From Rhodopirellula sp. P2 (GTDB taxonomy: Bacteria > Planctomycetota > Planctomycetia > Pirellulales > Pirellulaceae), in assembly GCF_028768465.1 (NCBI RefSeq), contig NZ_CP118225.1, forward strand, positions 6,491,001 to 6,555,000: a DNA stretch of 64,000 bases. The letters run 5' to 3'. The notes under the pieces are model-generated. The model saw nothing but the letters and a program-made list of their open reading frames with translations, ran no database searches and had not been told where the DNA came from. The translations under genes were made by a program, and so were the position numbers. Positions 5,046-16,155 of the stretch are shown here, one piece after another (within the stretch, counting starts at the first letter, position 1; each line of letters starts with the position of its first letter).

Positions 5046-6104
5046 TCAAACACTCGCACCGGTCAGTCGCGTCAAGACTTTGAGTACCGCCTCCACGCTC
5101 GACAAATTGGCCGTTTCAGTTTGGGTGTGATAAGAAGACGTGGGCAACTGCAGCGTCGTTCCACTGACATCGCCGCTGGTCGCATCGATCAAGCGTCCGA
5201 GCTCGGTTCGGCCGATGGAGCTTTGCTTTTCACGCGTCTTGTTCAGCTCGCTCACGTATTCGTCTTTGAAGCGATGCGTCACCTTCAGCTGATCGCAGAC
5301 CCGCTGGAGTTCCGCGGTGACGGCTGGCTCAAACTCCGCCACCGAATCCCGATTCCGAAGCACCACTTCCTGGACGTTCAAGTCATCCGGTGTTGGAAAC
5401 GGACTGGTGTCCAACACGATCAGACGTTGGGTCTTCAAATCAAATCGTTGGAACCATTCCGCAACGTATCGATAACTTCGCCCGCATTCTTCGCCCGCGG
5501 TGAAGAAGACTGTGCCGCGAAACCCCCGGCGAATCATCTCGATCAAAATCGCGACGGACACAACGTTGTCGAGCTGGGCTGAGATCTGACCATCCTCTTC
5601 CCGCAACCGATCCACAAACGAGATCGGCGTCCCTGGTTGAAGAAAGTCCAGCCCATCGATGTCGAAGATCAAGTTCTTGCGTCGCGGACAGATGAAAGAT
5701 TCCGTGATCGTGCCCTGACCCAAATAAGATCCCGCGTAGGGCGTGTGAGCTTGCACCCGCTGGCCGCGAAAACGACCGGCGATCAGTTCCATGAACTGTT
5801 CCGAAATGGAATCCCCGTTCAGCTCCCCCCGGTTCCCAGCAATGAACGCCGCGTACTGAAACTCCCTTGGTCCGGTGCAAAGCAGTCCGTGACGATCCAC
5901 GTGAGCCGAGAGGTAATTGCTCTCTGGGTCGCTGCCTTGCGCGACCAGCAACCCGTGATAACGCGTGATCGTGACCGGGAATTCTTCCAGCTCACGCCGC
6001 AACACGCGAAAGAACGCGTCTTCCACGCCGACGACCGAGGGTTCGCGAATGAGTGCCCGAAGCAGATGCAGGAAACCTTGAAGCGAGTCGTGGGAGCGTT
6101 TCAT
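5046..6104 (-). CDS. M42 family metallopeptidase (aminopeptidase/endoglucanase-type)
   Basis: The protein shows the dinuclear zinc layout of family M42: SAHVDRHG (first metal ligand His-x-Asp), QLDN (bridging Asp), TAGEECG (catalytic Glu and ligand Glu), VLDTSPF (ligand Asp) and a C-terminal SSYHTQTE (ligand His). M42 enzymes are cytoplasmic self-compartmentalising aminopeptidases. The ATG at 6104 is preferred; an in-frame TTG at 6179 would add 25 residues that do not resemble the family. The gene lies downstream of the recQ pair on the same strand and next to the tandem repeat array. Confidence 0.8.
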   Translation of the reverse strand: MKRSHDSLQGFLHLLRALIREPSVVGVEDAFFRVLRRELEEFPVTITRYHGLLVAQGSDPESNYLSAHVDRHGLLCTGPREFQYAAFIAGNRGELNGDSISEQFMELIAGRFRGQRVQAHTPYAGSYLGQGTITESFICPRRKNLIFDIDGLDFLQPGTPISFVDRLREEDGQISAQLDNVVSVAILIEMIRRGFRGTVFFTAGEECGRSYRYVAEWFQRFDLKTQRLIVLDTSPFPTPDDLNVQEVVLRNRDSVAEFEPAVTAELQRVCDQLKVTHRFKDEYVSELNKTREKQSSIGRTELGRLIDATSGDVSGTTLQLPTSSYHTQTETANLSSVEAVLKVLTRLTGASV

Positions 6105-6242
6105 GAGCGGACTGACGGAAGCGGGTGCAGACTCCCGATCGAGAGCCCACAACACCTGGTGGAACGAGTGTTTGGACAATGCGTATATGCCGTTCCAGCC
6201 AACCGCACAATGGCACCTTCGAAAGAAAGCTGGCTGCCGGTT

Positions 6243-6539
6243 TCAACGCGTCTCCCACCAATCCGCGTAGGGTGTATTCCTCACCAGTTGACGGCTGTGA
6301 TCGGTGTCGTCGTCCCACCAAGTCGGCCCGCGTTCCCCGAGCTGGATCTTCGCCTCGTTGACCGCATCGCGAGCCATCTGCATCGCGTCTTCATCCCCCG
6401 ATGCCTTCGCAGACTTCACGTCCCGTCTCGCTTTCATCAATTCGCGAACGAATTGCTGACGCTCCGTCTCGCTCAAGTTCGGATTGGTGCACCGCCACAA
6501 TCGTTGCTTGTGAACAAAGTATCGACCGTCAGGTGTCAT
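6243..6539 (-). CDS. Small conserved hypothetical protein
   Basis: A 98-residue soluble protein starting MTPDGRYFVHKQRLWRCTN and ending in RNTPYADWWETR, with a charged helical middle. The pattern (MxPDGRYFV, RLWR, ELMxARRxV, GERGPxWW, NTPYADW) matches a small uncharacterised family I recall from proteobacteria and planctomycetes; function unknown. The start at 6539 is chosen because residues before it come from the shadow of recQ. It begins 22 bp after the recQ stop and is probably cotranscribed with it. Confidence 0.7.
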   Translation of the reverse strand: MTPDGRYFVHKQRLWRCTNPNLSETERQQFVRELMKARRDVKSAKASGDEDAMQMARDAVNEAKIQLGERGPTWWDDDTDHSRQLVRNTPYADWWETR

Positions 6540-6561
6540 CGGGTACTTCACAGCCAGCCCC

Positions 6562-8016
6562 TCACGCACTCGCAACCGCGACGGCTCCGCACTGATCACA
6601 AAGACAATCCGCGTTCGTCGTTTCGCTGACGCCGAAATGCTCACGGAGCAATTCCCAACGACACTTCGATGACTCGGCAAACTCGACCATCTCACGCAAG
6701 GCCACCTGACGATCCTCGGATCTCACTCGAGTCGCTTCCTCCAAGCGATCCGCGACACGGTGCTCAAGCTCGTCCACGATCAAACGCCATCTTCCCCGTC
6801 CGGCCGGAGCGACGATGCCCCGAGAAGACAACAACTGAAAACAGTTCTTCAAGGTGACGCGGCCGAGCGGACTGATCGGTGCCAGCTTCGACAACGCCAC
6901 CTGGCCATCTTCGCCCAGCTCGTGGACGCCGCGAACCAAGGTGTGATGCGCCGTCATGATCTTGCTCGCCGCCATCATCCCGCCCGCAAACATTTTTCGC
7001 AGGTCCACATCTGCGGGATCGTACAACAGCGTGCAACGCGATCGCTTGCCATCCCTCCCCGCTCGCCCCATCTCTTGGTAGTACGACTCCAACGAACCTG
7101 GCAACTCGACATGAATGACTTGACGTAGATCTTGCTTGTCGATGCCCAGCCCAAACGCGTTGGTCGCAAACATCACACTTGGCCCCCCGTTCATGAACTC
7201 CTCTTGAGCGGCAGCACGTTCAGCCTTTCGCAGTTTGCCGTGGTAGCACAATCCACCGAAGGACTTCGCCAGCTGGTCCGCCGTCTTGGTCGTTCCGCAA
7301 TAGACAATCGCCGGCTCGGTGCGTTCCAGCAGACCTTCGATCTCGAGCGCACGATGCAACTGTTTCAGTTTGTCTTCCGCCGAATAGCAACGAACAACTT
7401 CGATCCGCAGGTTGGGCCGGTCGATTCCAGTTCGAACAATGGTGGGATCGTTCATACGCAGCGAGCACCGGACCTCATCCAGCGTTCGTTCCGATGCGGT
7501 CGCGGTGAGCGCAGCCAACGGCGGATTCCCCAACCGCTCCCGAATGGATGGCAAGCACAGATAATCTGGACGAAAATCGTGCCCCCATTGGCTAACACAG
7601 TGCGCCTCGTCGACCACCATCAATCCAACTCCCACACCCGCGAGCAATTCGCAGATGTCGGTTTTCTGCAATCGTTCCGGTGTCGTGAGAACGAACTTGA
7701 CCTTTCCCGCGGCAATCTTTGACCGGGCGGACTCAATTTGCTTCTTTGTACGCGTGCTGTTGAGCACCACGGTTGGCTGACCAGCCTCTTTCAAATGTTC
7801 CGCTTGATCTTTGGCAAGCGAAATCAACGGGCTGACGACCAACGTCACCCCATCGCGGAGGATCCCGGGAAGTTGATAGCACAGGCTTTTCCCTGCTCCG
7901 GTTGGCATCAACACAATCGTGTCCTTGCCAGCCACAATCGACTCGCACGCCTCGCGTTGACCGTGACGAAAGGATTGAAACCCGAAGCAACGATCGAGGT
8001 GAGGGTGGAGATCCAT
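6562..8016 (-). CDS. recQ: ATP-dependent DNA helicase RecQ (short form)
   Basis: A 484-residue superfamily 2 helicase: Walker A TGAGKS at 39-44, DEAH at 136-139 followed by the RecQ aromatic-rich loop (CVSQWGHDFRPDY), motif III TATAS, and motif VI QEMGRAGRDG. The C-terminal cysteines (SSKCRWELL then CLCDQC) form the RecQ zinc-binding domain. There is no HRDC domain, so it is a short RecQ. It would unwind DNA 3' to 5' in recombination and fork repair. It is divergent from the gene at 8276, with about 260 bp between them. Confidence 0.92.
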   Translation of the reverse strand: MDLHPHLDRCFGFQSFRHGQREACESIVAGKDTIVLMPTGAGKSLCYQLPGILRDGVTLVVSPLISLAKDQAEHLKEAGQPTVVLNSTRTKKQIESARSKIAAGKVKFVLTTPERLQKTDICELLAGVGVGLMVVDEAHCVSQWGHDFRPDYLCLPSIRERLGNPPLAALTATASERTLDEVRCSLRMNDPTIVRTGIDRPNLRIEVVRCYSAEDKLKQLHRALEIEGLLERTEPAIVYCGTTKTADQLAKSFGGLCYHGKLRKAERAAAQEEFMNGGPSVMFATNAFGLGIDKQDLRQVIHVELPGSLESYYQEMGRAGRDGKRSRCTLLYDPADVDLRKMFAGGMMAASKIMTAHHTLVRGVHELGEDGQVALSKLAPISPLGRVTLKNCFQLLSSRGIVAPAGRGRWRLIVDELEHRVADRLEEATRVRSEDRQVALREMVEFAESSKCRWELLREHFGVSETTNADCLCDQCGAVAVASA

Positions 8017-8275
8017 CGTAGAACAGTCATTCGGCGGGCGGCGATTTCAACGCCGACGAGCGGCACGTGGTCGACCAGCCTCGCAAAGCCTGTGCCAACA
8101 CCACGTCGGGTTTTCAAACGAGTCCAGAGCGATGAACCGTGTCGCCGCCTGTCCTTCCCGCTAACCTCTTCCTAGAGCGTTGACGGCAGCGGTGGACCTG
8201 CGGCGAGATGAATCGCACGGCAATCGCACAAAACGACAACGCACAAACCGCAGTCTCCCCAACCCGGCTCACTTC

Positions 8276-9733
8276 ATGACCGAATCTTCTTCTCGCAGCG
8301 AACGCATCTTGATTTGCGGAGCCACGGGCTACGTCGGAGGGCGGCTGGCCAGACGGCTGCTGGAAGAGGGCTACCGGGTGACTTGCCTGGTTCGAAGTCC
8401 CGAAAAGCTGACCAAGTTTTCGTGGGGGCAACACGAGCGTCTCACGGTTGTCCAAGGCGAACTGGAAGACACCGAGGCCACCCGGCGTGCTCTCGAAAAC
8501 ATCGACTTCGCGTACTACCTCGTGCATTCGATGCAGTCCGCCAAAGGCGAATACGCTCAGCGAGACCGTGAACTGGCGACTGGGTTCCGCGACACCGCCC
8601 AAGATTCTTCGTGTCGTCGAATCATCTATCTCGGTGGTCTGGGCGAGTTGGGTGCCGACCTTTCGGAACACCTCGACAGTCGCCACGAAGTCGGTGAAAT
8701 CCTGCAATCCGGCCGCGTGCCCACCACCGTGTTCCGCGCCGCGATGATCATCGGCTCCGGGTCCGCCTCCTTTGAAACGCTGCGTTACCTGGTGGAGCGT
8801 TTGCCGATCATGGTCACGCCCAAATGGGTCAAAACGGAAACCCAGCCCGTCGCGATTCGTGACGTCCTCCGCTACCTCGTCGCTTGCTTGAGTGTGGACG
8901 AAACCACCGGCCGCACGTTGGACATTGGCGGCCCGGATGTCATGTCGTATCGCGACGTGATGCAGGTGATGGCAAAGAAGCTGAAACTGCGTCGACGAAT
9001 CATCCTCCCCGTTCCCGTCTTGACGCCCTACCTGAGCAGTCTGTGGATCGGGTTGGTCACGCCGGTCAGCAGCAGCATTGCCCGACCACTCTCAGAAGGC
9101 TTGAAGAACCGAACGGTTTGCCGGAATGACGATGCCGTGCGATGGATGCCCGGTGACTGCCTGGGAATCGAAGCGGCCATCGAGGCGGCTCTCAGCAAAA
9201 CGCAGCATGGCGAGATCGAAACGCGTTGGTCGACCGCAGGCAAAATCCCGGGCGATCCAGATTGGTCCGGGGGAACGACCCTGACCGATCGCCGCGAAAC
9301 CACCGTCCAAGCTTCTGTCGAGCAAACCTTTGCGGAGATTCGGTCGATCGGTGGAGCCAATGGCTATTGGGGCGCCGGGTTCCTCTGGCGAATTCGCGGC
9401 TGGATGGATCAAGCGATCGGTGGCCCTGGTCTCCGACGTGGCCGCCGCCACCCTCGTGATCTGCATTACGGCGAAGCGGTCGATTTCTGGCGAGTCACCA
9501 AACTGATCCCCAACGAACGACTGACCTTGCGAGCCGAGATGAAGCTGCCCGGCGAAGCAGAACTCGACTTCCAATTGGAACCGTCCTCGCCGGAAACGAC
9601 GCAGGTCGTCATGACAGCGAGGTTCCGTCCCAAAGGTCTGCTGGGGCTGGCGTATTGGTACGCGGTCTTGCCGCTGCACAGCTTGGTCTTCCCGGTCATG
9701 CTTCGCGGGATCGCGAAAAAGGTTCGGGGGTGA
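8276..9733 (+). CDS. NAD(P)-binding SDR-like protein with C-terminal DUF2867/SRPBCC domain
   Basis: The 485-residue protein starts with an atypical short-chain dehydrogenase Rossmann fold: ILICGATGYVGGRLA near residue 10, then a YYLVHSM segment. The last 150 residues resemble DUF2867, a START/SRPBCC-type ligand pocket often fused to this dehydrogenase type. A hydrophobic segment near the C-terminus (LLGLAYWYAVLPLHSLVF) suggests membrane association. Start at 8276 follows from the protein fold; residues encoded before it are low complexity. The enzyme substrate is unknown; NmrA/complex I-assembly-like sugar or lipid reductases are relatives. Confidence 0.85.
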   Translation: MTESSSRSERILICGATGYVGGRLARRLLEEGYRVTCLVRSPEKLTKFSWGQHERLTVVQGELEDTEATRRALENIDFAYYLVHSMQSAKGEYAQRDRELATGFRDTAQDSSCRRIIYLGGLGELGADLSEHLDSRHEVGEILQSGRVPTTVFRAAMIIGSGSASFETLRYLVERLPIMVTPKWVKTETQPVAIRDVLRYLVACLSVDETTGRTLDIGGPDVMSYRDVMQVMAKKLKLRRRIILPVPVLTPYLSSLWIGLVTPVSSSIARPLSEGLKNRTVCRNDDAVRWMPGDCLGIEAAIEAALSKTQHGEIETRWSTAGKIPGDPDWSGGTTLTDRRETTVQASVEQTFAEIRSIGGANGYWGAGFLWRIRGWMDQAIGGPGLRRGRRHPRDLHYGEAVDFWRVTKLIPNERLTLRAEMKLPGEAELDFQLEPSSPETTQVVMTARFRPKGLLGLAYWYAVLPLHSLVFPVMLRGIAKKVRG

Positions 9734-10588: not shown

Positions 10589-10934
10589 GCGTTCGCCCCG
10601 GTTGGACGTGGAAGCAACCACGCTTGCCAAGACATTTCAAATGCCGAAATCCTCCTGCCGACCTGTTGCGGGTGAAGCAGGCACGCAGAAATGATTGGGT
10701 TTCCCCGTGTGAGCCGTTTGGGCGTTAGCCCCGGTTGAACGTGGAAGCAACCACGCTTGCCAAGACATTTCAGATACCGAAAGACTCCTGCCAACCTGTT
10801 GCGGGTGAAGCAGGTACGCAGGAATGATTGGGTTTCCCCTTGTGAGCCGTTTGGGCGTTAGCCCCGGTTTTGCGTGGCAACCGTGGCGAACGCCAAACGG
10901 CTCACAAACCCGATGACACCGGCGTACCTGCTTA
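10589..10934 (+). repeat. Three palindromic repeat units in tandem, 133-bp period
   Basis: The core GCGTTNGCCCCGGTT occurs at 10589, 10722 and 10855, exactly 133 bp apart. The first unit is truncated on its left, the second (10674-10804) is type I, the third (10807-10934) is type II. Type II is one long inverted repeat whose two arms each hold a GTGAGCCGTTTGGCGTT-like block; type I has the left half followed by a different right half ending CTGCC..CTG. Unit ends are AAGCAGG and CCTGCTT. Confidence 0.85.
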
Positions 10935-10993
10935 AAATAAAACGGCCTCCACCGACATCGGCCTTTCGCTCCATCCACCAATGAGTCAGCACC

Positions 10994-11122
10994 TTGCTAG
11001 ACGACTTCGATCTTTTCGGCGATGTGAGCGGATCCGACAGTTCCATTGGCTGTGGAGGGCTCATCTTCACATTCGCCCTCGCGGCTCTCCTGTTCATCCT
11101 CGTTTCGGTTTGGATGTCGTGA
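10994..11122 (+). CDS. Possible 42-residue single-span membrane protein (TTG start)
   Basis: A short frame from a TTG codon gives an acidic N-terminus (LDDFDLFGDVSGSDSS) followed by a glycine/cysteine turn and a hydrophobic segment LIFTFALAALLFILVSVW, then a stop. The charge-then-membrane pattern is protein-like, but there is no clear ribosome binding site and no ATG. It lies just inside the repeat at 10807-10934. Uncertain. Confidence 0.3.
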   Translation: MLDDFDLFGDVSGSDSSIGCGGLIFTFALAALLFILVSVWMS

Positions 11123-11459
11123 GCGCATCTTCTTCTTGCGGAATCGCATCGCCCCAGGCGGATTCCGATTCGCCCAAACCCGCGTTGGTCAAACACACCT
11201 CCGCTCCCAAACCCACGTGATCAGGCACGCACCGGCGTCGGCCACCGGTGTATCACAATCAACCGCGGGATGTGGTGTCGGTGTGCACCACCGAATGCAA
11301 TTTGCAAGAAAGTTTCCAATGTTCTGTTTGTCCAACTTTGTGCACGAAGGACATGCGCGAATCTGCGTCTTTGCCCACGAAAATAAAGAAACGGACGTGA
11401 GACTTCCTCGCCGCCAGCCCGTGTGAGTCTCGGAGTTGATCGCTCGGAGCCGAAGCCAA
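11123..11459. other. Non-coding spacer
   Basis: No supportable gene. It lies between the small membrane ORF and the 3' end of the Shedu-like gene and contains no obvious terminator hairpin. Confidence 0.4.
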
Positions 11460-12857
11460 CTATCTTCCTTCTTCGCTTGGACTCAAAAGTGAGTGGATAT
11501 CTTTTAGTTTTGCTGCCAACTCATCAAATGTAAAGATGCTGACGTCCCGCGAATTGTGTCTTATAAGCTCAAACGACTTTCGCTCAACTCGTGACTCGGG
11601 TGTTGTACCGATTATCAAGACACAATCGACCATAAATGTTTCGATGTCATAGAGTCCAGCATTTTCCTTTATCGAAGCAATCTCTCTCTGGAATTTGTAC
11701 TTTTGGTCAAGCAACTGACCAATTGACCCGGCAAACTCATGTGACGGAGAATAGAGACCAGCACGATATTCAGCAGACCTCAGAATCTTAGTGCTTGGCT
11801 TCTTGATTTCAACGAGTGCAGAATTCTGAGTCAATCGATTCTTCACCAAAAAATCCGTTATCTTGTCACCTGAACCAGTGATCGTACGTCCTCCAACCGA
11901 CGCCTGATCTTGGATCTTTAGAATCGGATACCCAAAGACAAGCGACAAAAGATATGGATTGTCAGACAATAATCCCTGCCAGTCTCCCTCTGACGACTTG
12001 CGTGCCAATAGCTTGTCAACCTCAGAGATAAGCCACTCCAAATTCATCAGCTCGATGTCTTGCTGTAGCTCAATCACTCTTTTTCGACTCACCGAATGGA
12101 TCGCTTTTTGGTTGTTAATGACCAGTTCGACAATCGCTTCTGAATCGCGTCTGGATGGCCGCTCTGCAAACGATGTTGACGAAACAAATTTGTGAATGAC
12201 TCCTTTTTTCAGGCCCCTCTTTCGTGCGGGGAATTTCTCGGGATCCAATTTCGTGAGGATCTTGTTGTGGACGAGAATGTCTCGATCCTGTCTCGCTTCG
12301 GACCGATAATTCTCGGTAATCCTGTTGATCGCTTTTCTCAACTCCTCGAATTCATCAAAGGAAATTACCAATCCGTAGTCATGTAGCCCCGTCGGCTCTG
12401 TCTTACTAATGACGAGACTTTCAACGTCCGGAATTTCCTCCACGGCAAAAATAATACTCTGGTAATCCTTGACTAGCCCCAAACCGTACTCGTAGTCTTT
12501 GATGAAACCTGCGGGGAACTCCTCGAGCAAAGAAACAACTTCGACTGGTGATTTAGGCGTATCAAAATCGAATCCATCGAGTACTAGTGACACTAATCGC
12601 TCGTACTTTCTTTCGAAAAAGCGTTCATGGCCAGCAAGAGTGTTGATGGGTGAGATTTCTACGAAGTTGTCCTGTCCGTTTACGAGAAGGATCTGACGTT
12701 TGGCTTTTGTACGGTCTGCGTCAGTCTTGTCTGGGCCCGAAGACATTTGCCACTTGCTGAGCGAAGGCAGAAGATCAACTGCAACACAGTTTGGGAACTC
12801 TTCGCTAATGACCAGATCATCTGCGGGATTGCAGTTCGGATCATGGAGTCTCGCCAT
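11460..12857 (-). CDS. sduA: Shedu-type anti-phage nuclease (DUF4263)
   Basis: A 465-residue protein whose C-terminal third matches the DUF4263 nuclease of the single-gene Shedu defence system. The PD-(D/E)xK core is visible as D331 and D335 in GSGDKITDFL, then E350-x-K352 in ALVEIKKPSTK; LLSDNPYLLSLVFG just before is the usual helix preceding this fold, and a Q-containing helix (GSIGQLLDQ) follows. The N-terminal 270 residues are likely the sensor region and match nothing I can name. Base composition is visibly more AT-rich than the flanking genes, consistent with transfer. It sits in a repeat-bracketed island with a recombinase relic and the gene at 13492. Confidence 0.85.
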   Translation of the reverse strand: MARLHDPNCNPADDLVISEEFPNCVAVDLLPSLSKWQMSSGPDKTDADRTKAKRQILLVNGQDNFVEISPINTLAGHERFFERKYERLVSLVLDGFDFDTPKSPVEVVSLLEEFPAGFIKDYEYGLGLVKDYQSIIFAVEEIPDVESLVISKTEPTGLHDYGLVISFDEFEELRKAINRITENYRSEARQDRDILVHNKILTKLDPEKFPARKRGLKKGVIHKFVSSTSFAERPSRRDSEAIVELVINNQKAIHSVSRKRVIELQQDIELMNLEWLISEVDKLLARKSSEGDWQGLLSDNPYLLSLVFGYPILKIQDQASVGGRTITGSGDKITDFLVKNRLTQNSALVEIKKPSTKILRSAEYRAGLYSPSHEFAGSIGQLLDQKYKFQREIASIKENAGLYDIETFMVDCVLIIGTTPESRVERKSFELIRHNSRDVSIFTFDELAAKLKDIHSLLSPSEEGR

Positions 12858-13079
12858 TCGGTCACCGCTCGGGGTTTCGTGGATAGTTGGCTGCGGAAGA
12901 CGTGTTCTGCGCAGATTTCAGGCGACAGCATCACAGACACCGAATGTAGTTGCTATCGCAAGTTGTTGCATGAAGTTGCATCGACCAACGAGAATTTGGC
13001 AACCGCGTTGGGCGCGTCGGTCACTTTCACCTCCGCAACGAACCGTGGCCGGATTTCAGTGCTCCGGTTTCATCAACCG

Positions 13080-13480
13080 GGATCCGTCGCGTCAGCTCGA
13101 ACTATCCTGGAAAGTCACATTTCCATTCCCAGATTCGGAAGTCGAGCAAGGAGCATTCATCCCGTAGCATGTCGAGAGAAGCTTACAGAGGTAGTCGACA
13201 GCAACGCGGGAGATTCTCCAGGTGTCGACAAGTTTTCCATCCGCTATCCAACTCTATTGCAAAGCCAAAAAGCACTCGAAGGGCACCAGGAACGAATACA
13301 AAGCCACAGTGAGAAAGTGGATCAGTTGGGGCAAGTAATTCCTCTGGAACATCTATCCCGATCAAGCATTCGAGATTTTCTGGATTGGGGTTGCGACGAT
13401 AAGGTTGAACAAGGAGGTGAGAATCCGGAGCGGACATCGAACAAGGCATGCGATCATGCTCTTGCAACTTACAACTCGAC
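13080..13480 (+). pseudogene. Decayed tyrosine recombinase/integrase, N-terminal part
   Basis: Two reading frames join into a phage-integrase core-binding domain. The frame ending near 13338 gives AIQLYCKAKKHSKGTRNEYK and then ATVRKWISWGK; the next frame gives IPLEHLSRSSIRDFLDW, then NPERTSNKACDHA. Upstream pieces (GKSHF, PRFGSRAR) look like the Arm-type DNA-binding start of the same proteins. At least two frameshifts are needed and the catalytic domain is absent; similarity stops just before the gene at 13492. A long open frame covering 12747-13709 on this strand is the accidental result of this relic plus antisense of its neighbours. Confidence 0.6.
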
Positions 13481-13491
13481 TGACTGTGCGG

Positions 13492-14436
13492 TCACCAGCG
13501 AAATTTGTCTTGTGTTTCTCCGCACGTTAGGCAGTCGTCTTCATACAGCACATCACCCTGGCATTCCTCGTCAAGACATTTCGATCGCTCGACGTCAAAA
13601 GTTTCTTCGCAAACAAAGCAGTACAGCTCGCGCTGCCCCGGCTCCTTTGTGGGGAAGAACGCTGACAATGTTCGCAATCCCCAATCGGCACACTCACCTT
13701 GACAGCTAGGACACCTATAGTAACGCCGCCTTTTATTGAGTCCCAAGAAACGATGCAACTGGGCAGGCTCAAGCACTTCCATAAGTATGCCAAACTCCCG
13801 TCCGAGGACGCAATTTACGCAGGAATCCTCGTAGTCCTCAACATCAGAAACTTGGTATTCCCTCCTAACTCCAAACCATTTCTGTTGCCCTATCAAATGC
13901 TCCGAGACAACTAAGCAGTTCACAAGAATCTCTTTCGCAACAAGCTTGAGACTGTTGTCGACGCTGTGGACCAACACGTTACGTTTCCTGCGAAGTTGGG
14001 TAAACAAGTCAGTAAATTCGTCGTCGAGCGGATTCTCGGAAACAGCGCCATACAGCCGGCACAAATCTTGTGCATCGACTGTTTTGAAATCGGCAAAGCG
14101 AATATTCCCATCACTGTTTTGCTTAGGCCATTCCGCAACCTTGTTGGCAATCAGGAGATACGGACTGATTCTTGCGATCCTTCCTTTCAACAGAAACTCA
14201 GTACCCTGAACGGACAGACTCAAGGACTGACCAAGGTGCTTCTGCACCCTCTGCCAAAAACGTTGCTCTTGTTCACTTGGAGCATCATCATCTTCGTCGT
14301 CAGCCGAGGCATCCCACCACGTTTCTTTGGCGTCGTTCACATGCAATAGATGAGAGATTGCCTCAGTCCACGCCAAGTTCAAATACCCAAATCCGGACTC
14401 TTCGTAGTGGGAAGCATTCGGTACTTCGATAATCAA
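13492..14436 (-). CDS. Unknown protein with HEPN-like RX4H motif and zinc-ribbon cysteines
   Basis: The 314-residue protein begins at a TTG codon with GGA about seven bases upstream; no ATG exists before the upstream in-frame stop. Residues about 60-185 are helical and contain RKRNVLVHS, with R152 and H157 in the RX4-6H spacing of HEPN RNase active sites. The C-terminal 110 residues hold cysteine pairs C206/C209, C242/C245, C273/C276 and C302/C305, enough for two or three zinc ribbons. I do not recognise the family. Its position beside a Shedu nuclease and an integrase relic suggests a defence role, which is inference. Lower GC than the core genes, like its neighbour. Confidence 0.75.
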   Translation of the reverse strand: MIIEVPNASHYEESGFGYLNLAWTEAISHLLHVNDAKETWWDASADDEDDDAPSEQEQRFWQRVQKHLGQSLSLSVQGTEFLLKGRIARISPYLLIANKVAEWPKQNSDGNIRFADFKTVDAQDLCRLYGAVSENPLDDEFTDLFTQLRRKRNVLVHSVDNSLKLVAKEILVNCLVVSEHLIGQQKWFGVRREYQVSDVEDYEDSCVNCVLGREFGILMEVLEPAQLHRFLGLNKRRRYYRCPSCQGECADWGLRTLSAFFPTKEPGQRELYCFVCEETFDVERSKCLDEECQGDVLYEDDCLTCGETQDKFRW

Positions 14437-14542
14437 CTTTCGTTCCTGTTGTTTCGTGCTTTTCGGGTCATTTCACATGAAGAAAGAGCTGGTTGCAGAA
14501 CGATGAGTTCATATTCGCTGAGAATTTTTGCAGGCGACCAAG

Positions 14543-14671
14543 CTAAGCAGGTACGCAGGTGTCATCGGGTATGTGAGCCGTTGGCGTTAGCCACGGTTTT
14601 CACTCGCAACCGGGGCTAACGCCCAAACGGCTCACATGGTTGTGCCCGATCATTCCAGCCGACCTGCTTAG
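14543..14671 (-). repeat. Type II palindromic repeat, inverted relative to 10807-10934
   Basis: Begins CTAAGCAGGTACGCAGGTG and ends GACCTGCTTAG. The two halves contain GTGAGCCGTTGGCGTTAGCC and its inverted counterpart GGCTAACGCCCAAACGGC, so the whole unit can fold into one hairpin. It is the reverse complement arrangement of the unit at 10807, and the two enclose the Shedu island. Confidence 0.85.
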
Positions 14672-15220
14672 CTCCCCTCGGACAACGTTCTACCATTGTC
14701 TACTCAGAGTGTAGCACCGCGTTTGCATTCAGCACACGGCGACATGGTGTTCAAGTTAGATCGGCTTCGGTATGGCAACTCCGAGTCGACACTGTGAGTG
14801 GGGTCTTTCTTCCGGATCAGCTTACAAGTGTTCCGTTGGCCGAGTCCGGTTGCTCAGTGACCGAAGCACGCTGAGTATGATGGCCAATCCGCAGCGGATG
14901 GACAAGCCGATAGGTCGCGGAAGACTGTCAAATTGCTTTCGGTCCCGAAGACCGACGCTGCACGGGTGGCCGACACCGGTGTACCGAGTTTGTGGCTGCC
15001 AAGGCGGAACGATGCTCCAAGTCTCGTCGCCTGCTTCCGATTCGCCAACCATTCTCGGTCGAAAATGAGTGAGGAGCGGCGAAGCTTTGCTCGTTGAACC
15101 CTGGGCGAGTTTGGAGCCGCATTGGGTGAGCGACTTTTTCTGAAAATCGGTGTCGGGCAGCGTGGCGAAATGGCGGGGGTCAGGTTGAGGACTTAACCGA
15201 CCGTCAATCGAGAACCACAC
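14672..15220. other. Long spacer without a recognisable gene
   Basis: Short open frames exist on both strands but none has composition, motif or context support. It probably contains the promoter of the thioredoxin-like gene at 15221. Confidence 0.4.
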
Positions 15221-15733
15221 ATGAACGATCAAGACTACGAGCTTCCATCCGTTGAGACGATGGATCCACGCCCGCTGCCAAAGCCCCTGTTTCATTTTTG
15301 GCGTTGCTTCTGGCTGACGTTCCTTGTTGTTTCACTGGGCTATGCTTGGCATTGCTTCTACGTTCCCGCGAACGAGATCGCTTGGGCGAAAGACTACGCT
15401 TCGGCGAAGCGGCATGCAGCCAAGGCCGACAAACCGATCCTGCTCTCTTTCACTGCCAACTGGTGTGTTCCCTGCCGCGTCATGAAACGCCAAGTCTGGG
15501 CCGATTCCCAGGTGATGGAGTTGGTCAATGCGGAGTTTGTCCCGGTGGCGATTGACGTGGGCGATCCGGAAAACGCCGAGATCATGGCGGACTACGGGAT
15601 CGAAAGTTCTCCCGTCACCATTGTCTGCGACTCACAAGGGAAAACGCTGGATTGGCGAGCAGGAGGAATCAGCAAACCGGTCTTCCTCGAATTGCTTGAT
15701 TCGTCGCATTCGTTACGCGTGAACAACAAGTGA
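15221..15733 (+). CDS. Membrane-anchored thioredoxin-like protein
   Basis: A 170-residue protein with a single N-terminal membrane segment (about 27-47, FWRCFWLTFLVVSLGYAW) and a periplasmic thioredoxin fold. The redox motif is FTANWCVPCRVMK (CVPC) and the cis-proline is in SSPVTIVCD. This is the Thioredoxin_7/DsbD-gamma-like type used to keep exported proteins or cytochrome precursors reduced. The stop codon lies inside one arm of the inverted repeat at 15718-15814. Confidence 0.8.
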   Translation: MNDQDYELPSVETMDPRPLPKPLFHFWRCFWLTFLVVSLGYAWHCFYVPANEIAWAKDYASAKRHAAKADKPILLSFTANWCVPCRVMKRQVWADSQVMELVNAEFVPVAIDVGDPENAEIMADYGIESSPVTIVCDSQGKTLDWRAGGISKPVFLELLDSSHSLRVNNK

Positions 15734-15814: not shown

Positions 15815-15837
15815 TGGTCCTTAGCTGAGCGGCGGTT

Positions 15838-15964
15838 GAAGCAGGTCGGCAGGAATGATCACGCACAACCATGTGAGCCGTTTGGGCGTTCGCCCCGGTT
15901 GTGCGTGAAAACCGTGGCCAATGCCAACGGCTCACATCCCCGATGACACCTGCGTACCTGCTTC
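15838..15964 (+). repeat. Type II palindromic repeat
   Basis: GAAGCAGGTCGGCAGGAATG at the left end, ACCTGCGTACCTGCTTC at the right end, and two inverted GTGAGCCGTT blocks inside. Same orientation as 10807-10934. Confidence 0.85.
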
Positions 15965-16155
15965 GCAGGATTTTCATGGAAGGAGTGCGGGCCGCTGGCG
16001 TCCCACCACCGCCGGATTGAACAACGGAATGGTTCTGAACGTTCTTCGAGCGGAACTGGATTGGCTGCCCGGCTAGCCGACCTTCTATCGTGCAGTGGCA
16101 GACGATTCTCCTTCGGACTCGTCGCCATCGATCATCGCAGAGAAAAGGTATTCCG

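Follow-up and report, generated by a model that had tools for sequence, protein, structure and literature searches.

The window analysed here is a stretch of 64,000 nucleotides from Rhodopirellula sp. P2 (NZ_CP118225.1, positions 6,491,001 to 6,555,000) and is part of a single-contig genome of 7,291,416 bases. It contains an island with a gene for the Shedu nuclease SduA, a relic of a tyrosine recombinase and a gene for a protein with an HEPN-type RX4H motif (Table 1). A preliminary description, made from the sequence of the window alone, had read this interval as an accessory island, one that was acquired and that carries a Shedu nuclease, an HEPN-motif protein and an integrase relic, and this was borne out, as was the AT-richness given for it (GC content of about 0.44-0.53 inside and 0.54-0.62 outside). 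The island is the occupant of a chromosomal defence hotspot, in which different defence systems are found between conserved flanks.

The Shedu-like gene was identified as SduA by Pfam SduA_C (3.7e-24; 86.1 bits at a curated cut-off of 27) and by PADLOC SduA (3.4e-149). Its product was aligned with the solved SduA 8ti8, by which D335, E350, K352 and Q381 were matched; these we take to be the catalytic nuclease residues (D, ExK, Q). Shedu is the likely active defence gene of the island, nothing unusual was found in it apart from its cassette context, and we infer that the cargo of the island defends this host.

The RX4-6H motif is a mark of the HEPN superfamily. The product of the second gene, pointed out beforehand as an RX4H protein, belongs to a conserved and little-described family, in which R149 and R152-N153-x3-H157 are invariant (10 and 16 aligned members, the own protein included); the motif reads R152-N-V-L-V-H157, with R152, N153 and H157 invariant in 16/16 members. 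The cysteines C242, C245, C273 and C276 are invariant in the 16-member alignment and occur in 90% or more of the 10 members of the smaller one, and the TTG start agrees with the aligned N-terminus of the family. PADLOC gave weak matches to HEC-08 (3.7e-6) and DUF3644 (6.4e-5) over approximately residues 79-167. The AlphaFold2 (AF2) model had a pLDDT of 87, and a Foldseek search with it gave no match at E<=0.001, the HEPN toxin 7ae6 standing at rank 10 with an E value of 0.91. The protein is therefore called HEPN-like on the strength of its RX4H motif. Weak profile matches and the RX4H motif connect it with the HEC-08/DUF3644 HEPN proteins, from which the family differs by its C-terminal zinc ribbons and its mobile-element neighbourhood.

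Table 1. Features of the island and its flanks (window positions)
Feature	Position	Strand	Basis or remark
Dispersed palindromic repeat, outside the cassette	10807-10934		not a boundary
Conserved left flank of the hotspot	10932-11248		90-93% identical in G180, G141, G130 and G166
Left cassette end, G site	11230-11252	-	core CCGGCGTCGGCCACCGG at 11232-11248, without mismatch to that of the genus
Shedu nuclease SduA, 465 aa, complete gene	11460-12857	-	Pfam, PADLOC (near full-length match), alignment to 8ti8
T site, upstream end of the 1.24-kb unit	13061-13080	+	GCTCCGGT-TTCATCA-ACCGG; 1 mismatch to GCTCCGGTTTCATCGACCGG
Tyrosine recombinase relic, residues 1-79 of 347, frameshifted	13222-13457	+	blastx
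HEPN-like protein of 314 aa with C-terminal zinc ribbon(s); starts with TTG	13492-14436	-	family alignments, PADLOC, AF2
Dispersed palindromic repeat, inside the cassette near the right end	14543-14671		
Right cassette end, inverted G site	14960-14983	+	core 14963-14979; 1 mismatch
Thioredoxin-like gene, conserved right neighbour	15221-15733	+	Pfam Thioredoxin_7; 78-87% identical in 5/12 congeners

Cassette ends and replacement of the cargo

Similarity of the window to four congeners (referred to by our handles G180, G141, G130 and G166) ceases at about 11248 and returns at 14949-14976. At both synteny breaks lies a 25-bp site in inverted orientation, here termed the G site, which reads CCTGCTCCGGTGGCCGACACCGG at the right end in G141. 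The left G site of the window has the 7-nt spacer GGCCGAC on the minus strand and is reached into by the conserved flank of the four congeners, and the right flank is conserved in them from about the right G site onward; the core does not detect the right site of G166, which is too degenerate. Both flanks were found in five species, and all five are occupied between the sites (5/5), with four kinds of system: Shedu and the HEPN-like gene in the own species, IetA/IetS in G180 (2.1e-93 and 8.5e-111) and, divergent and in the other orientation, in G130, a 1501-aa STAND/HEAT ATPase with a weak Avs2 match only (3.2e-6) together with an intact recombinase in G141, and a GmrSD/HEC-06 restriction protein in G166. 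Two more genomes (G158 and G045) match on the right side of the hotspot alone, and no close match to the thioredoxin gene was found in the other six congeners. As the second half of what would refute it, the preliminary description had named stable core sequence in closely related genomes; the congeners replace the region instead of keeping it as core.

The G site was then counted by its 17-bp core CCGGTGGCCGACNCCGG. At no more than 1 mismatch, 5 copies were found in the own 7.29-Mb genome (1 for the reversed control); four of them form two inverted pairs, namely the island ends and a pair with sites 1.9 kb apart around a single AbiU-like gene (2.3e-76), and one is alone. The 13 genomes of the genus contain 73 G cores, compared with 6 for the reversed pattern, and 42 of these cores make up 21 (-,+) pairs within 10 kb. 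Consecutive hits within 10 kb were ordered (-,+) in 21 cases, (+,-) in 4, (+,+) in 2 and (-,-) in 2.

Inverted ends, the (-,+) order in 21/29 consecutive site pairs, and the varying length and position of the cassettes are also what terminal inverted repeats of a classical transposon family, with its transposase acting in trans, would give. This explanation is considered very unlikely: several species have new occupants at the same loci while the sites are in place, which means exchange and not fresh insertion, and by inspection no one transposase family recurs in the cassettes, an HUH-like protein being present in one of them (L160) and a DDE transposase in the G130 hotspot. The latter gene lies between IetA and IetS (L076, 7766-9067).

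The cargo was scanned with PADLOC on 38 of the 41 open reading frames (ORFs) inside 20 pairs (three ORFs <190 aa were left out); these 20 comprise 19 of the 21 pairs, the two thioredoxin-hotspot pairs being omitted, and one 15.3-kb pair. A match was called strong at E<1e-20 if it was non-generic. Strong matches were obtained in 7/20 pairs: AbiU; Avs2 with a viperin-like gene; PDC-S06; a CBASS cyclase with an HNH-SAVED effector; PDC-S60; type IIG restriction-modification; and Avs4 with PD-Lambda-4. Weaker matches (4.8e-5 to 4.7e-16) were obtained in another 5/20. Pfam detected HD-CE in one of the four cassettes that were negative in PADLOC, and TIR-TPR and PNP-STAND domains were also found in cassette cargo. 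By ORF, 12/38 in cassettes had strong matches against 1/28 ordinary ORFs of the window outside the island (p=0.005). In this control each family that gave a match did so with a single ORF, and the best matches were to helicase-type DpdF profiles; they are attributed to a RecQ-like gene, although the output does not state that all of them come from one ORF.

Other loci are used in the same manner. At a locus beside a fructose-bisphosphate aldolase-like gene (named by eye), three species have different cargo between the sites: AbiU in the own species, CBASS in G186 and a 214-aa protein in a 0.95-kb cassette in G180. G130 and G166 have other DNA there, with no recognisable sites. In G174 there is no cassette and the matched flanks are 28 bp apart; it was rejected as a strict cassette-free site, the gap being wider than the sites. 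A further locus, beside a portal-like phage gene, is common to G150, G158 and two IMG/VR contigs, and four different cargos without any mutual DNA match lie between its sites (L152, L161, L223 and L224). Since a protein encoded next to it is similar to portal proteins of phages (best listed E value 6e-30), this socket probably lies in prophages.

A three-ORF cassette of G158, 2.9 kb long, was found again on an IMG/VR contig of 47.4 kb, where two adjoining stretches match it with 95.5% and 96.1% identity. In L162, which has the sites at 5767-5783 and 8679-8695, the match runs from 5768 to 8695 and so extends from outer edge to outer edge; beyond it, no other match was found between the 14.5 kb and 13.5 kb compared. 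No other result, in our view, speaks so directly for the segment from site to site being the mobile unit. The IMG/VR search gave G sites in 5 stretches on 4 contigs and no exact T-site match (see below for T sites).

In the preliminary description the ends of the island had been placed at two copies of a palindromic repeat. Two mutually inverted copies are indeed present; they are dispersed repeats and not boundaries. As island ends the 129-bp palindromes were rejected: near-full-length copies number 42 or more in the genome, and the flank common to the congeners includes the left one. A further copy was located at about 15832-15966. A tandem 133-bp repeat at 10589-10854 (two copies, 92%) shares pieces with this palindrome family. 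A small ORF at about 10993-11121 (+) contains the stretch LDDFDLFGDVSGSDSSIGCGGLIFTFALAALLFI and apparently encodes a short membrane protein; a similar ORF is present in the left flank of L074 (4667-4915).

The recombinase, its unit and the spacers

The decayed tyrosine recombinase noticed beforehand was recovered by blastx in two frames, which correspond to residues 1-38 and 20-79 of a parent recombinase of 347 aa with 68% and 65% identity; the remainder of the gene is lost. At the DNA level, 13060-13458 of the window is 77-90% identical to intact units in six loci (L075 and L206-L210). An intact recombinase gene is present at the same hotspot in G141, with a weak match to Pfam Phage_integrase (2.2e-4, under the cut-off). 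Tyrosine recombinases have the catalytic set R-K-HxxR-H-Y. In the alignment of 13 members K203, R275 and H296 are invariant, Y306 is present in 12/13 and HxxR reads K/NxxR (by eye). The recombinases of L075 and L206-L219, again as 13 aligned members, have Asp at the usual position of the first Arg and a C-terminal cysteine cluster (CPC-RR). Close relatives of the G141 recombinase (87-95% protein identity) were found in four other genera of the host family and the wider recombinase family in 42/241 genomes (E<=1e-10); there was no match in 72,556 plasmid records.

When the six loci were compared in pairs, 14/15 DNA comparisons gave a sharply bounded match of 1.17-1.27 kb. The resulting 1.24-kb unit consists of the recombinase gene with some 170 bp of upstream and some 22 bp of downstream sequence, and its ends are mutually inverted and of the form GCTCCGGT-TTCATCG-ACCGG (T sites). 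At no more than 3 mismatches, both ends were found in L075, L208 and L209 and one alone in L206, L207 and L210. The cassette ends have the form GCTCCGGT-GGCCGAC-ACCGG, so that cassette and unit have the same arms and differ in the 7-nt spacer. Perfect 7-bp arms gave 7 sites in the 1.40 Mb of sequence that was fetched, all with a spacer of 7 and none at 0-6 or 8-15. T sites with no more than 3 mismatches numbered 26 in 755 kb (reversed control 0), and G cores with no more than 2 mismatches numbered 10 in 70.6 kb near close recombinase relatives outside the genus (4/5 loci) and 1 in 176 kb near relatives of 57-62% identity (1/10 loci); the choice of loci rested in part on the G core and in part on the recombinase, by which both site counts are inflated.

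Two of the loci, L206 and L207, have a stretch of 1,705 bp in common (99.4%), whose left end falls inside a T site and whose right end falls inside a G site. At each end the first mismatch is at the junction of spacer and arm, with unrelated DNA outside; such ends are the footprint that would be expected of a crossover in the spacer.

These results bear on another explanation, by which the sites are conserved intergenic hairpins, such as terminators or REP-like repeats, and the cargo is exchanged by homologous recombination in the flanks. The sites are in fact imperfect palindromes, several hundred conserved flank bases lie on both sides of the swap loci, which is enough for homologous recombination, and HUH-type proteins similar to REP transposases were recognised by eye near hairpin clusters (L137, 74-1009(-)) and inside a pair (L160, 13605-14792(-)). 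In hairpins, however, the loops should vary and the stems covary, yet in 57 fetched G sites the core mismatches avoid the spacer (2/21, p=8e-4), which is the most conserved part, and the outer pairs are not preserved (pair -1/17 in 30/57). Flank homology also does not give cassette and unit identity that stops inside the sites with unrelated DNA outside, and by inspection no Y1_Tnp match was found within 10 kb of the 73 G sites. This explanation is therefore judged unlikely. The HUH-motif proteins of L137 and L160 are themselves absent from the Y1_Tnp profile matches.

Pieces of the unit were found at five places in the genus: the window, G150:C105, G141:C22, the aldolase locus of G130 and G091:C25 (an 82-bp piece). 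Three are inside a G pair, one is 0.5 kb from a G site and one has no recognisable site near it. Among the relics, those at L151 (8039-8221) and L149 (6132-6516) have internal deletions with the outer parts of the gene kept, residues 1-35 next to 321-346 and residues 62-141 and 294-345. Near close recombinase relatives in other genera, genes for a SMEK-domain protein (L210, 989-3313(-)) and a SIR2-like protein (L207, 14213-15283(+)) lie beside G sites.

Shedu and the HEPN-like protein as cargo

The preliminary description had proposed that Shedu and the HEPN-like protein work together, that is, as one two-gene defence system. In the window genome both genes are adjacent on the same strand, and both products look like nucleases. 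To these points may be added three loci of HEPN homologues: L124, in which a gene for a 294-aa SduA-family protein (6262-7146(-); no PDB match by phmmer) lies 0.9 kb from the homologue, and L122 and L123, in which near-identical SduA-family genes are on the contig of the homologue. The gene in L124 is nevertheless on the opposite strand, with two small ORFs between, and the distance is 37 kb in L122 and 32 kb in L123. Among the 33 homologue loci, some of which are cut by contig ends, an SduA-family gene within 5 kb was found in one (L124), and the PF14082 search gave no SduA_C gene in 30/33 homologue genomes or records. The profile was used here; phmmer with the window Shedu misses the L124 gene (G593), which the profile finds. 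In 12/33 loci the gene directly downstream of the homologue belongs instead to an integrase cluster, mostly in near-identical sphingomonad copies, and in the window itself the truncated recombinase and the T site separate the two genes. A two-gene system is accordingly held to be highly improbable, and the proposed partnership was not upheld. Co-occurrence of the two is only occasional, because one of 33 loci has an SduA gene near and 30/33 are without; the HEPN-like gene beside Shedu in the window is best explained as independent cargo, and its product as a second presumed RNase that travels on its own.

Few planctomycetes have the HEPN-like protein: it is present in 2/199 genomes of the family and 3/392 genomes of the phylum (the own genome counted each time). 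The downstream gene of the integrase cluster is annotated as integrase in L065 and L066, and in two further homologue loci a convergent integrase lies beside the HEPN homologue (one identified by eye); between this integrase cluster and the parent recombinase of the relic no relation was detectable by phmmer at E<=10. On plasmids, HEPN homologues were found in 19 records, and in none of the 9 regions read was there an annotated Shedu; in one plasmid region outside the 33 loci (L073) a PD-(D/E)XK nuclease gene adjoins the HEPN match. On plasmids and contigs of sphingomonads (L065, L066 and L120-L133), a relative of about 415-450 aa with a C-terminal extension is lined up with an integrase and often adjoins VapC/AbrB-like genes.

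Proposed exchange of cassettes and its meaning

With the ends, the synteny, the cargo replacement, the site-to-site recurrence of one cassette, the shared arms and the breakpoints at the sites observed as above, the island is read as an exchangeable cassette at a defence hotspot, bounded by two inverted recombination sites and replaced as a unit in relatives (probability roughly 0.7). Cassettes with the same ends are present at other loci as well, prophages probably among them. According to the proposed mechanism, the small tyrosine recombinase would act on G sites by the arms GCTCCGGT/ACCGG and the spacer GGCCGAC. It has its own 1.24-kb mobile unit with the spacer TTCATCG, a broken copy of which is left inside the window cassette. 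A crossover in the spacer at both sites would swap the cassette (recombinase-mediated cassette exchange), and recombination between two like inverted sites would invert the segment. The spacer may set the compatibility of partners, as described for pdif sites (PMC13141974). Exchange at intact G pairs may need a recombinase from incoming DNA, or homologous recombination in the flanks. We infer from the sequences that the exchange is catalysed by the recombinase family. The recombinase piece has opposite orientations in the window and in G141, as inversion predicts; the cargo differs too.

Several findings weigh against this reading. Inverted sites yield inversion and not excision, so that exchange requires two intermolecular crossovers. 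No (-,+) pair includes 31/73 of the G sites, and 4/20 cassettes have no PADLOC match, with another four having generic matches alone (three kinase, one methyltransferase-like). Flank ORFs are also rich in defence genes, 3/10 having strong matches against 12/38 inside (p=1; 10 of the 32 flank ORFs, chosen by hand); the defence bias of the cassette interior thus holds against an ordinary region and not against the immediate surroundings. As for the enzyme, the parent recombinase scores below the Pfam cut-off, its first catalytic Arg is not recognisable, D158 being in its place (by eye), and the intact copy within the genus is that of G141 only, the others being relics. Several unit ends are imperfect or have more than 3 mismatches, and 5-bp arms peak at a spacer of 7 (38 sites) but also at a spacer of 5 (19), which is unexplained. 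The cassette-free G174 is, in addition, without about 380 and 230 bp outside the sites.

The dif modules of Acinetobacter plasmids (pdif/XerCD) are described as having oppositely oriented sites whose arms are constant and whose spacers vary; recombination takes place between spacers that are identical or nearly so, and modules are swapped with both sites retained (PMC13141974). Their XerC/XerD arms, such as ATTTCGTATAA/TTATGTTAAAT, are separated by a 6-nt spacer (PMC13141974). The cassettes of the window type are alike in that the sites at their two ends face opposite ways and both stay in place when the segment between them is exchanged. They differ in the unrelated, GC-rich arms GCTCCGGT/ACCGG, in the 7-nt instead of the 6-nt spacer, in a recombinase that has a mobile unit to itself where the dif modules use the host XerCD, in belonging to another phylum, in loci that are chromosomal and probably also in prophages, and in cargo that often consists of defence systems. 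These modules are the nearest known system, which works alike but fails on arms, spacer length and enzyme. In integrons, single gene units are captured site-specifically by a tyrosine recombinase, and defence genes are known among them. The proposed capture by a tyrosine recombinase and the defence cargo are points of likeness here; the difference is in two inverted sites per unit instead of one attC, and, unlike in integrons, no long cassette array was seen in the stretches fetched. Core-gene hotspots of E. coli and Pseudomonas carry variable defence systems between conserved core flanks; here, by contrast, the same short site bounds the variable segment at several unrelated loci. No description of site-bounded exchange of defence cassettes was found among the best-ranked literature matches in open-licence papers.

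A wider interpretation is put forward tentatively, as one falling slightly short of an even chance: the host family may have a dedicated exchange of immunity, phage-borne and chromosomal, in which a stand-alone recombinase unit serves sites with constant arms, the 7-nt spacer sets compatibility (GGCCGAC for defence, TTCATCG for the recombinase) and whole systems plug into fixed sockets. A natural recombinase with the same arms and different spacers would, if this is true, be a new tool for site-specific recombination. Paired G sites can serve as a search handle, and the unannotated genes enclosed by them, such as those in L137, L156, L158 and L206, are candidates for new defence genes. To our knowledge, the movement of single defence systems between hosts is largely an open question, and defence islands are usually described without defined ends. 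In the present case the ends, the unit and the candidate enzyme can all be named, so that the transfer is directly testable.

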